DNA of 64,000 nt from the NCBI RefSeq assembly GCF_004362045.1, contig NZ_SNWX01000006.1, forward strand, positions 62,001-126,000. The letters are read 5' to 3'. This DNA is from Halanaerobium saccharolyticum (GTDB taxonomy: Bacteria > Bacillota > Halanaerobiia > Halanaerobiales > Halanaerobiaceae). Of this stretch, positions 28,795-31,521 are shown piece after piece. A program made the translations under genes and the position numbers. The notes under the pieces are model-generated. The model ran no database searches, had not been told where the DNA came from, and saw only the letters and a program-made list of their open reading frames with translations. Numbering within the stretch: position 1 is the first letter of the stretch; each line of letters opens with the position of its first letter.

Positions 28795-28820
28795 AATAAA
28801 TATATTAATGGGGTGTGAAG

Positions 28821-30023
28821 ATGAAATATTCAGCAAGAATTGCCAAAATTGAGGAGTCAAAAACAATTGCGGTTAGTACTAAAGCAAATAAGCTAACTGC
28901 AGCAGGGGAAGATGTGGTTAGCTTTGGAGCTGGAGAACCAGATTTTCCTACACCAAATTTTATTAAAAAAGCTGCTGTAGAGGCTATGGATAAGGGGTAT
29001 ACCGGATATACATCTGCTTCCGGTTTACCAGAATTAAAGGAAGCAGCTGTTAACAAATTTGCTTCGGATTATTCATATAAATATTCTACTGAGGAAGTTA
29101 TTGTAGGTAATGGTGGGAAACAAATACTTTTTAATGGATTATCAGCTATTTTGGAAGCGGGAGATGAAGTCTTAATTCCAAAACCTTACTGGGTCTCATA
29201 TCCTGAGTTAGTTAAACTTGCAGGAGGTACTCCTGTATTTATAGAGACAAAGGCGGAAAATAAATTTAAACTTCAGGTATCCGAAATGGAAAAAAATTTA
29301 AACGAAAAAACTAAAGCAATTATTATTAATTCTCCTTCTAATCCAGATGGACATTTTTATACTTCATCAGAATTAATAGAATTACTTGATTTAGCAGTTA
29401 AAAAAGATTTATTTATTATCAGTGATGAGATATATGATAAATTACTTTATGATGGCAGAGAATTTAAATCTATGATTGAACTGTTCCCGGAATACAAGGA
29501 TAGATTATTAATTGTTAATGGGATGTCTAAATCATATTCGATGACCGGCTGGCGGGTTGGATTTGGTTTTGCCAATGAAAAGTGGATCAGTTCAATGGCC
29601 AAAATTCAGAGTCATACAACCTCTAATGTTAATACAATTGCTCAATATGCAAGTGCAAAAGCTCTGGCCAATGATGATTTAGAAATAATTATAGATGAGC
29701 GCAGAGATATTTACCAGCAAAGAAGGAATTTAACTGCGGAGCTGCTGGCAGAAATTGAGGATTTAGAAGCTATTAGACCTGCAGGAGCTTTTTATTTTTT
29801 TATTGATATTTCAAAACTTATAGAAAAAAAATATAAGGGAAAGAAGATTGAGGGTTCACTTTCATTTTGTGATTTACTTTTAAAAGAAAACAAGGTGGCC
29901 GTGGTCCCCGGTATAGCTTTTGGTATGGATAACTTTATCCGGATTTCTTATGCTTTAGGAGAAGATCGAATCAGAGAAGGTATTAAAAGAATAGCAGATT
30001 TTGTTAGTATAATTAAAGCTTAG
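28821..30023 (+). CDS. Class I/II aminotransferase (aspartate aminotransferase-like)
   Basis: A 400-residue fold type I PLP enzyme of the bacterial AAT 1-beta type. Visible signatures are SFGAGEPDFPTP (substrate entry), YTGYTSASGLPELKEA, the Schiff-base lysine in NGMSKSYSMTGWRVGFG, ISDEIYDKLLYD (Asp and Tyr contacting PLP) and FIRISYALGE with the substrate carboxylate Arg. The normally conserved SPSNPTG reads SPSNPDG here. ATG 28821 fits the GGGGTG ribosome site better than GTG 28815. It may use aspartate, or keto acids of the neighbouring pathways; specificity is not readable. Confidence 0.85.
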   Translation: MKYSARIAKIEESKTIAVSTKANKLTAAGEDVVSFGAGEPDFPTPNFIKKAAVEAMDKGYTGYTSASGLPELKEAAVNKFASDYSYKYSTEEVIVGNGGKQILFNGLSAILEAGDEVLIPKPYWVSYPELVKLAGGTPVFIETKAENKFKLQVSEMEKNLNEKTKAIIINSPSNPDGHFYTSSELIELLDLAVKKDLFIISDEIYDKLLYDGREFKSMIELFPEYKDRLLIVNGMSKSYSMTGWRVGFGFANEKWISSMAKIQSHTTSNVNTIAQYASAKALANDDLEIIIDERRDIYQQRRNLTAELLAEIEDLEAIRPAGAFYFFIDISKLIEKKYKGKKIEGSLSFCDLLLKENKVAVVPGIAFGMDNFIRISYALGEDRIREGIKRIADFVSIIKA

Positions 30024-30051: not shown

Positions 30052-30070
30052 TGCAGGCAGCTCGCAGGCA
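30052..30070. repeat. 19-bp direct repeat, copy 1
   Basis: TGCAGGCAGCTCGCAGGCA, exactly repeated at 30316-30334. Each copy also contains a shorter internal repeat GCAGGCA x2. The pair brackets the tRNA-Leu fragment at the prophage left boundary. Confidence 0.85.
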
Positions 30071-30100
30071 ATTAGAGTTAGAGTCTAAATTATAGTAAAT

Positions 30101-30124
30101 AAAAAAGAGCCCTTAAAAAGGCTC
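30101..30124 (-). terminator. Leftward terminator behind the tRNA-Leu fragment
   Basis: On the minus strand GAGCC (30124-30120) pairs with GGCTC (30111-30107) and is followed by six T. It is placed 20 bases after the CCA end, as expected for the terminator of the original leftward tRNA-Leu gene. Confidence 0.78.
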
Positions 30125-30144
30125 CTATCACTGCTATATTAAAA

Positions 30145-30204
30145 TGGTGCGAAAGGAGGGATTCGAACCCTCACGGTCGTAAGACCACTAGACCCTGAAT
30201 CTAA
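30145..30204 (-). tRNA. tRNA-Leu(CAG), 3' part only (truncated by integration)
   Basis: Reading leftward, the segment has the 3' strand of the anticodon stem, loop TTCAGGG with anticodon CAG (complement of 30195-30197), a long variable arm GGTC-TTAC-GACC typical of class II tRNAs, the T arm GAGGG-TTCGAAT-CCCTC, acceptor strand CTTTCGC, discriminator A and encoded CCA at 30147-30145. The 5' half (acceptor GCGAAAG, D arm) is missing. Bases beyond 30204 are unrelated. This is the usual scar left when a tyrosine-integrase element enters at an anticodon stem-loop and rebuilds the intact tRNA at its other end. Confidence 0.85.
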
Positions 30205-30240
30205 ATTAGCGGGGTTTCATACAAAACTATAGATATTTCA

Positions 30241-30277
30241 AACCTCTGTTAGTTCCATTATAGCAGGGGTTTTATTT
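30241..30277 (+). terminator. Rightward hairpin terminator near the left attachment region
   Basis: AACCTCTG (30241-30248) pairs with CAGGGGTT (30264-30271; one T-G pair), followed by TTATTTTTT. Its stem overlaps no gene. It may stop host transcription entering the prophage. Confidence 0.65.
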
Positions 30278-30315
30278 TTTATATATTCTTAAATTGTCAG
30301 CAAACATTTATTTTA

Positions 30316-30334
30316 TGCAGGCAGCTCGCAGGCA
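30316..30334. repeat. 19-bp direct repeat, copy 2
   Basis: Exact copy of TGCAGGCAGCTCGCAGGCA at 30052-30070. It lies between the tRNA-Leu fragment and the second tRNA-like fragment. The gap 30205-30357 otherwise holds only the hairpin at 30241-30277. Confidence 0.85.
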
Positions 30335-30357
30335 GAGATTTTATCTAAATGCAAAAG

Positions 30358-30383
30358 TGGTGGCCAGGTGGGGACTCAAACCA
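30358..30383 (-). pseudogene. Second tRNA 3'-end fragment next to the integrase, candidate att core
   Basis: On the minus strand the 25 bases after TTT read as the T loop (GGTTTGAGTC), T stem, acceptor strand CCTGGCC, discriminator A and CCA of a tRNA different from the tRNA-Leu at 30145. The 5' strand of the T stem is already lost (mismatched to CCCCA). The fragment begins 4-5 bases after the integrase stop, exactly where a phage attP core often lies. The tRNA species cannot be named from this piece. Confidence 0.65.
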
Positions 30384-30387
30384 AAAA

Positions 30388-31521
30388 TTAAAAAATATCG
30401 TCTAATTTATTCACTGCTGAATTTTTACTTTTATCAGAAACATGGGTGTAAATATCAGCTGTAGTGGACCTTAAAGTGTGACCTAAAAGTTTTTGAATGG
30501 TTTGTATATCCTGTCCATTTTCTTTTAATATTGAAGCAAATGAGTGCCTTAGGCTGTGGAATGTATATTGATCCATATCTGCAGCCCTTGCATATCTTTT
30601 AAAAGCATGACTAATAGAGTCTGGATCTGGAGGAGTGCCATCTTTTCTGGCAAATACTAAGTTATTTTTATTATAATTCTTTAACATTAGCTCAGTTTTG
30701 ATTTGAACCTGCTCTTTTTTTATGTTTCTTAAAAGATTATATACTTTTTTTGAGAAGGGAACACTTCTAACCAGGTTGTTTTTAGTAGTTTCTTGAATAA
30801 AAGTCTGGCCGCTGGTCCTAAGTAAAGATTGCTTTACAAGTATTGTTCTGCTATCAAACTCAATCAAATCCCATTGTAAACCTAATATTTCTCCTCTTCT
30901 TAAACCAGTTCTAGCTGCAAATTCAAATAATCTTCTATAATACTTATTATCCACTGTCTTTAAAAATCCTTCTAATTTTTTTGAATTCATATATTTAGCT
31001 TCTTTAGTTACTTTTTTAGGCGGATCTACAAGTTCGGCTGGATTTATCTTAATCATTTTCCATTTTAAAGCGTTACTAAAAGCTTTGTGCATGATTGAAT
31101 GATGGTATCTAACAAATCTATTAGAAAGACTTTCTCCCGTTGTCAAATTCCCCTTTTTAAGTTTATGATCATAGTAATTTTCTAATAATATTGGTTTATC
31201 TATTAACTCTCCCAGAGTATATTCACCAAGAATAGGGAGTATATGTCTTTCAATTACATGTTTATAATTTTCATGAGTAGAAGGTTTTAATCTTTTTCTA
31301 TGATTTTCTAACCAATCTAAAAGAAAATCTTCAAGCTTTATTTTTCTTCCTTCAAAAACACCGCTTTTTATTTCTCTTTCCATTTTATTCATAATTTCTT
31401 TAGCTTTATCTTTCTTAGCATTAACAGTTTTATAAATAAAATTTCTTTCACCATCTGGATCAGATTCCAACTCTATGACAATTTGATATTTTTTCTTACC
31501 TCTTTTCCTTAAATGAGACAT
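30388..31521 (-). CDS. int: Phage tyrosine recombinase (integrase)
   Basis: Catalyses site-specific integration and excision. The 377-residue protein has an arm-binding N-terminal domain (1-55), a SAM-like core-binding domain (about 60-160, DFLLDWLENHRKRLKPSTHENY) and the catalytic domain with R208 (ARTGLRRGEILGLQW), H322-x-x-R325 (FHSLRHSFAS), H348 (LLGH) and nucleophile Y358. It is complete and apparently active. AAGGAGG precedes the ATG on the minus strand. Transcribed leftward toward the tRNA fragments, it marks the left end of the prophage. Confidence 0.95.
   Translation of the reverse strand: MSHLRKRGKKKYQIVIELESDPDGERNFIYKTVNAKKDKAKEIMNKMEREIKSGVFEGRKIKLEDFLLDWLENHRKRLKPSTHENYKHVIERHILPILGEYTLGELIDKPILLENYYDHKLKKGNLTTGESLSNRFVRYHHSIMHKAFSNALKWKMIKINPAELVDPPKKVTKEAKYMNSKKLEGFLKTVDNKYYRRLFEFAARTGLRRGEILGLQWDLIEFDSRTILVKQSLLRTSGQTFIQETTKNNLVRSVPFSKKVYNLLRNIKKEQVQIKTELMLKNYNKNNLVFARKDGTPPDPDSISHAFKRYARAADMDQYTFHSLRHSFASILKENGQDIQTIQKLLGHTLRSTTADIYTHVSDKSKNSAVNKLDDIF

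Follow-up and report, generated by a model that had tools for sequence, protein, structure and literature searches.

An attL in tRNA-Leu(CAG) and a second tRNA-like 3' end within attP at the left edge of a Halanaerobium saccharolyticum prophage

Two different tRNA-like 3' ends and two copies of a 19-bp repeat lie within 340 bp beside an integrase gene of Halanaerobium saccharolyticum, which raises the question of which fragment is the attachment site of the adjoining prophage and what the other fragment represents. We analysed a window of 64,000 nucleotides (C6:62001–126000, where C6 is contig NZ_SNWX01000006.1) from a host genome of 3.36 Mb in 79 contigs; positions without a prefix refer to the window. 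The three items named in the preliminary description, a 3' part of tRNA-Leu(CAG), the 3' end of a second tRNA and a 19-bp repeat at 30052 and 30316, were all present, although both fragments end one base before the positions described. The tRNA-Leu part spans 30145–30203 (minus strand; described as reaching 30204), and the second tail, hereafter tail X, spans 30358–30382 (25 bases, minus strand; described as 30358–30383) and ends 5 bp short of the integrase stop codon (30388–30390), which it had been said to touch.

Because the tRNA-Leu fragment inside the window has its counterpart in an intact tRNA-Leu(CAG) gene with a matching flank at the right end on C6, the prophage is estimated at ∼ 45 kb. 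The right-end segment C6:137210–137371 is 90% identical to the attL region and overlaps the intact gene (C6:137313–137399). No other Leu(CAG) gene occurs in the set of host tRNAs examined (53 matches); within the window itself, neither ARAGORN nor Rfam at the gathering threshold found a complete tRNA. The left 34 kb of the prophage (30200–64000, delimited by attL and attR) are inside the window and the rest extends to about C6:137367. Its chromosomal left neighbour is an aminotransferase class I/II gene (28815–30023, plus strand; PF00155, E = 1.7e-75), whose counterparts adjoin an intact tRNA-Leu in 8 of 11 congeners. On the other side, a fragment of a UPF0236 (PF06782) protein (C6:137507–138055) begins ∼ 110 bp away, past the 5' end of the complete tRNA-Leu, and extends towards the contig end, so that only a short ordinary chromosomal right flank is visible. 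In its right-hand portion, which is outside the window, the prophage also holds a diversity-generating retroelement (C6:131778–134716) that consists of an FGE-like target gene, bAvd (PF22296, E = 1.6e-33) and a reverse transcriptase (PF00078, E = 2.2e-20), with a variable/template repeat pair of 115 bp in which all 16 mismatches (16/16) fall at template adenines.

The gene next to tail X (30388–31521, minus strand) encodes a tyrosine integrase of 377 aa (PF00589, E = 1.7e-35; PF14659, E = 5.9e-13), and about 190 bp separate its stop codon from the attL core. A sequence match to the integrase of the Tn916 family (solved chains 6emy and 6en0, E about 1e-14) covers the later part of the protein; it begins at residue 132 and thus leaves out the N-terminal domain. 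Tn916 is a conjugative transposon and is not known to target tRNA genes, unlike the element described here, a prophage in a tRNA gene. Pfam detected no arm-binding domain in the prophage integrase, the PF14657 cut-off being reached in three of eight integrase relatives, and the AlphaFold model (pLDDT 44.7) was too poor for fold comparison.

The joined attP was present in two metagenomic phage contigs of IMG/VR. In UViG_3300036466_000336 (L050; hereafter attP_336), the right end of the prophage abuts its left end (12.6 kb at 95% and 1.6 kb at 99% identity), whereas UViG_3300035534_000081 (L049/L053; attP_081) encodes an integrase 85% identical to that of the prophage. The prophage-free state was found in 8 of the 11 congeners searched (G001, G002, G003, G004, G006, G007, G008 and G010), where the aminotransferase gene is followed by an intact tRNA-Leu(CAG) and neither fragment is present. 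Only H. salsuginis (G009) has the site filled, with a related prophage at the same tRNA; G005 had no tRNA within the 1.5 kb taken beside the aminotransferase gene, and G011 (75% complete) gave no usable match to that gene. A tyrosine integrase at the att site, an intact tRNA at one end with its 3' fragment at the opposite end, an empty site and a joined attP were thus all found, and the proposal that a tyrosine-integrase prophage occupies tRNA-Leu(CAG) stands. A search of the open literature for Halanaerobium prophage integration, with most subscription journals outside its coverage, listed no paper on this genus as judged by title or abstract, and matches of the attL region to a collection of cultured phages were confined to the tRNA part among the 20 of 131 records listed.

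In H. salsuginis, the DNA matches that of the window from the CCA end of the tRNA (30145) for 1.47 kb at 97.8% identity, compared with 72% for the adjoining host DNA. The right end of its prophage matches over ∼ 1 kb at 93%, and between the ends mere patches align in the stretches that were compared. The two prophages are therefore close in the integrase and both ends (93–98%) with little in common in between in these stretches, as if the attP–int segment had been swapped as a single unit in the circular form.

These comparisons bear directly on the suggestion of two tandem integrations, by which tail X would be attL for another element, situated between the first attL and the integrase gene. 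The crowding of two tRNA tails and two repeat copies at one boundary speaks for such an arrangement. However, both tails and both of the repeats that we interpret below as arm-type sites occur together in one joined attP, and they travel as a unit into another species, H. salsuginis. The check proposed for the right end came out only in part: the intact tRNA-Leu(CAG) and a matching repeat are there, but the host has no second intact tRNA of the tail X type at up to three mismatches. At up to two mismatches, tail X is absent from the empty-site congeners, and in no relative were two elements or two attL sites found apart from each other. We consider a tandem integration very improbable and reject it because the joined attP carries both fragments. 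Judged from these alignments, attL is the tRNA-Leu fragment, which marks the left junction of a prophage integrated in tRNA-Leu(CAG), and tail X is phage cargo inside attP and not attL; the earlier proposal that either fragment could be the real attL holds for the first of them alone.

Alignment of attL, attR and attP also narrows the site of exchange. Over 30145–30387, attL and attP_336 differ at a single position, 30181 (A in attL, G in attP), and the A is also found in the chromosome of G002. The tRNA part of attL differs from the intact right-end tRNA at 30181 and 30200, the match stopping at 30203, and attR and attP begin to differ at the position of 30200. If 30181 represents the host allele, the exchange would fall within 30182–30199, over the 7-base anticodon loop (30193–30199); the interval would widen to 30145–30199 should the A at 30181 have arisen by mutation afterwards. 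The loop is bounded by TAGA and TCTA in both attP sequences.

The 19-bp repeat, TGCAGGCAGCTCGCAGGCA, is found at 30052–30070 and 30316–30334 and once more, without mismatch, at C6:137222–137240, outside the window; no other copy was found in the genome at up to two mismatches. It consists of two heptamers with an 11-bp period, GCAGGCA-N4-GCAGGCA. At up to two mismatches, this pattern has 2 matches in the window compared with 0.18 expected, and in 14 genomes of the family it occurs eight times, always at the tRNA-Leu locus, with no occurrence of the reversed control pattern. In attP, as in attP of the lambda type, the repeats lie on either side of the core: they have the same orientation and flank the anticodon loop at 120 and 117 bp in attP_336 and at 121 and 119 bp in attP_081, where one spacer is TTAT in place of GCTC and the heptamers are kept. 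Given this symmetric layout, the 11-bp-period repeats of related integrases and the likeness to known arm-type sites (both described below), the copies at 30316–30334 (117 bp from the anticodon loop) and C6:137222–137240 look like the P' and P arm-type sites, respectively, with integrase binding predicted from their arrangement. Seven IMG/VR stretches matched a pattern of arm plus TGGTGG; five of them (L101–L105) were set aside as lacking a related integrase, save for a weak C-terminal match in L105. An exact 19-mer in L052, in a sequence with no detectable similarity to the prophage, is probably due to chance.

The copy at 30052–30070 is on the chromosomal side of attL, in a flank that resembles the phage's own P arm. 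This flank (flank F; F0 in the present chromosome), with the repeat in the same place, was found in the empty sites of G007, G008 and G010 and, in a decayed state, in H. salsuginis, and was absent from the empty sites of G001, G002, G003, G004 and G006. At attR, the phage version of F is 100% identical over the 125 bp common to the prophage's own attR, the right end in H. salsuginis and attP_336. F0 is 79% identical to its counterpart in G008 and 75% identical to that in G007, the nearest relative by the aminotransferase gene, whereas the order is reversed for the neighbouring gene (76% in G008, 87% in G007) and for the other flank of the tRNA (47% and 67%, respectively); flank F thus does not follow the species. 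The variable arm of the empty-site tRNA-Leu(CAG) in G007 is near the attP_081 allele and unlike that of other congeners, which suggests that the 3' half of this tRNA-Leu is of phage origin.

One could regard the 19-bp repeat not as an integrase site but as a regulatory or small-RNA element of the host, located in the 3' flank of tRNA-Leu and taken up by the phage together with its tRNA copy. Flank F does adjoin tRNA-Leu in all five places where it was seen on a chromosome (G007, G008, G010, the attL described here and, decayed, H. salsuginis), and four of these five flanks have kept both heptamers. We find this quite unlikely, as the second copy of the repeat is on the integrase side of attP in a different context, five other empty sites do without F, F does not track the species, and integrases of the same clade have analogous repeats that differ in motif and are placed about as far from tRNAs of other kinds. 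It is possible that flank F as such is host DNA captured by the phage. The simplest account is that phage P arms were left in host chromosomes by prophage loss through recombination between homologous flanks, so the 30052 copy may be the scar of an earlier lysogeny. The idea of an older scar beside the element accordingly fails for the second tRNA fragment, which is no scar in this chromosome, but may apply to the left flank with its P-arm-like repeat, which is shared with three empty-site congeners.

Tail X itself was scored with a matrix built from 38 host tRNA 3' ends, with 76 kb of sequence (both strands) and 20 Markov-simulated sequences as background. It scored 25.2 bits, while the non-tRNA 25-mer that came next had 5.0 bits and the top simulated one 15.3; a score so far above chance identifies it as a real tRNA-like tail. 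At least 6 of its 25 bases differ from every one of the 41 distinct host tRNAs examined, and no match was found elsewhere in the genome at up to three mismatches. With the exception of the same two prophages, there was none in 59 genomes of the class (up to two mismatches) or in 398 genomes of the phylum (up to one mismatch to a degenerate pattern). Given this lack of a match at these limits in its own genome, the class and the phylum, we reject a copy of a host tRNA. H. salsuginis and the joined attP both carry tail X in the same surroundings. In attP_081, a tail at the same place keeps 20 of the 25 bases and scores 11.9 bits, and none of the 28 other integrase loci (L108–L135) has a tail at that place.

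Tail X, which lies beyond the P' arm, most likely represents the decaying remnant of a tRNA that the integrase lineage targeted earlier, and this agrees with the use of many different tRNAs by the integrase clade. No donor tRNA came to light in the searches above, and the retention of 20 bases at the same place in attP_081 would also fit a working part of attP, such as an excisionase site or an additional contact for the integrase, whose likeness to a tRNA end is incidental. We judge this to be rather unlikely: tail X scores as real tRNA ends do, attP_081 has lost part of the very positions that are tRNA-like (25.2 versus 11.9 bits) and the other 28 loci dispense with any such tail.

Relatives of the integrase were sought in the class, where 28 of 59 genomes gave matches at E ≤ 1e-40 and 30 of the 37 matched loci were taken. 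For the analysis of repeats, we used 28 loci, without L107 (a copy of the same lineage) and the near duplicates L132 and L133 and with L049 added, and recorded direct repeats of at least 8 bases with a period of exactly 11 bp between −20 and +250 of the integrase stop. Such a repeat was found in 18 of the 28 loci (two of the 18 being this lineage), while other periods from 6 to 30 were each seen in 0 to 2 loci and control stretches had no period-11 repeat inside the integrase gene (0/28) or 600–870 bp downstream (0/24); the remaining 10 relatives had no clear repeat under this filter. Among L108–L135, an intact tRNA is located within 500 bp of the integrase stop in 19 of 28 loci and a tRNA tail in 4 more, with neither in 5, including L110, for which 186 bp were available. 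The tRNAs beside these integrases comprise Sec, Trp, Leu, Pro, Lys, Ser, Val, Arg and Thr, and in the 12 loci with both a repeat and a tRNA the gap between repeat and anticodon is 90–136 bp. In an independent element in G029, the integrase gene adjoins a tRNA-Lys(CTT) gene whose 3' fragment is found at a distance of about 54.7 kb, and the arms are located at 111 and 116 bp from the tRNA-Lys loop; a search for such a distant second copy in three other genomes found just the integrase-adjacent one.

Comparable layouts have been described. In cluster K mycobacteriophages (e.g. CrimD and Pixie), pairs of ∼ 11-bp putative arm-type sites flank a tRNA or tmRNA core, in direct orientation in some phages, and related integrases differ in arm motif (PMC3203893). 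The Halanaerobium prophage likewise has a tRNA core between repeat pairs with a period of ∼ 11 bp and arm motifs that vary among related integrases but, unlike cluster K with its core 5' of the integrase gene, has the core downstream of the integrase stop and a second tRNA tail beside the gene. Putative arm-type sites are also present beside the core in tRNA-Lys phages, on both of its sides (PMC10865867). The prophages of Oenococcus oeni in tRNA-Leu and other tRNAs have putative direct-repeat arm sites on both sides of the core (PMC8074189), similar to the tRNA core with direct repeats on either side seen here, although their 10-bp motif occurs in uneven numbers (e.g. 2 and 4) as opposed to one heptamer pair per side. 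The attachment site of the Halanaerobium prophage is thus well resolved but ordinary and of a known kind.

Taken together, attL, attR, the joined attP, the empty attB of relatives, a short crossover interval and the symmetric repeats can all be read directly from the sequences. In the proposed mechanism, the tyrosine integrase would act at the anticodon loop, where it recombines the attP of the phage with tRNA-Leu(CAG), its N-terminal domain presumably binding the P' (30316) and P (C6:137222) arms at about 117–121 bp on either side of the crossover. The replacement 3' half of the tRNA and the terminator would come from the phage, which restores an intact gene at the right end and leaves the former 3' half at 30145–30203. 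The 30052 copy would be a P-arm-like chromosomal sequence, perhaps from an earlier lysogeny, and tail X, inside attP and outside the arm–core–arm unit, a likely relic of an earlier target. We assign a probability of roughly 0.85 to this account as a whole: the attL of a ∼ 45 kb prophage, recombination at the anticodon loop, repeats as arms, a P-arm-like copy at 30052 and tail X as a relic.

A broader picture can be offered tentatively, and we would not yet favour it over its negation. The integrase clade of Halanaerobiia may keep its attP geometry, an 11-bp-period repeat about 90–136 bp from the anticodon, through changes of both tRNA target and arm motif, in which case tail X would be the fossil of one such switch. 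Repeated lysogeny at tRNA-Leu may have left P arms in several Halanaerobium species; if so, attB there would carry half an attP and might be an altered target.

A tRNA fragment at the edge of a prophage need not mark an integration event in that chromosome, since a phage can carry one within its own attP. The ends of the Halanaerobium prophage are now fixed, giving a full set of attB, attP, attL and attR for an integrase clade that is common in Halanaerobiia, and this set makes arm-site specificity and the switching of tRNA targets testable in that clade.
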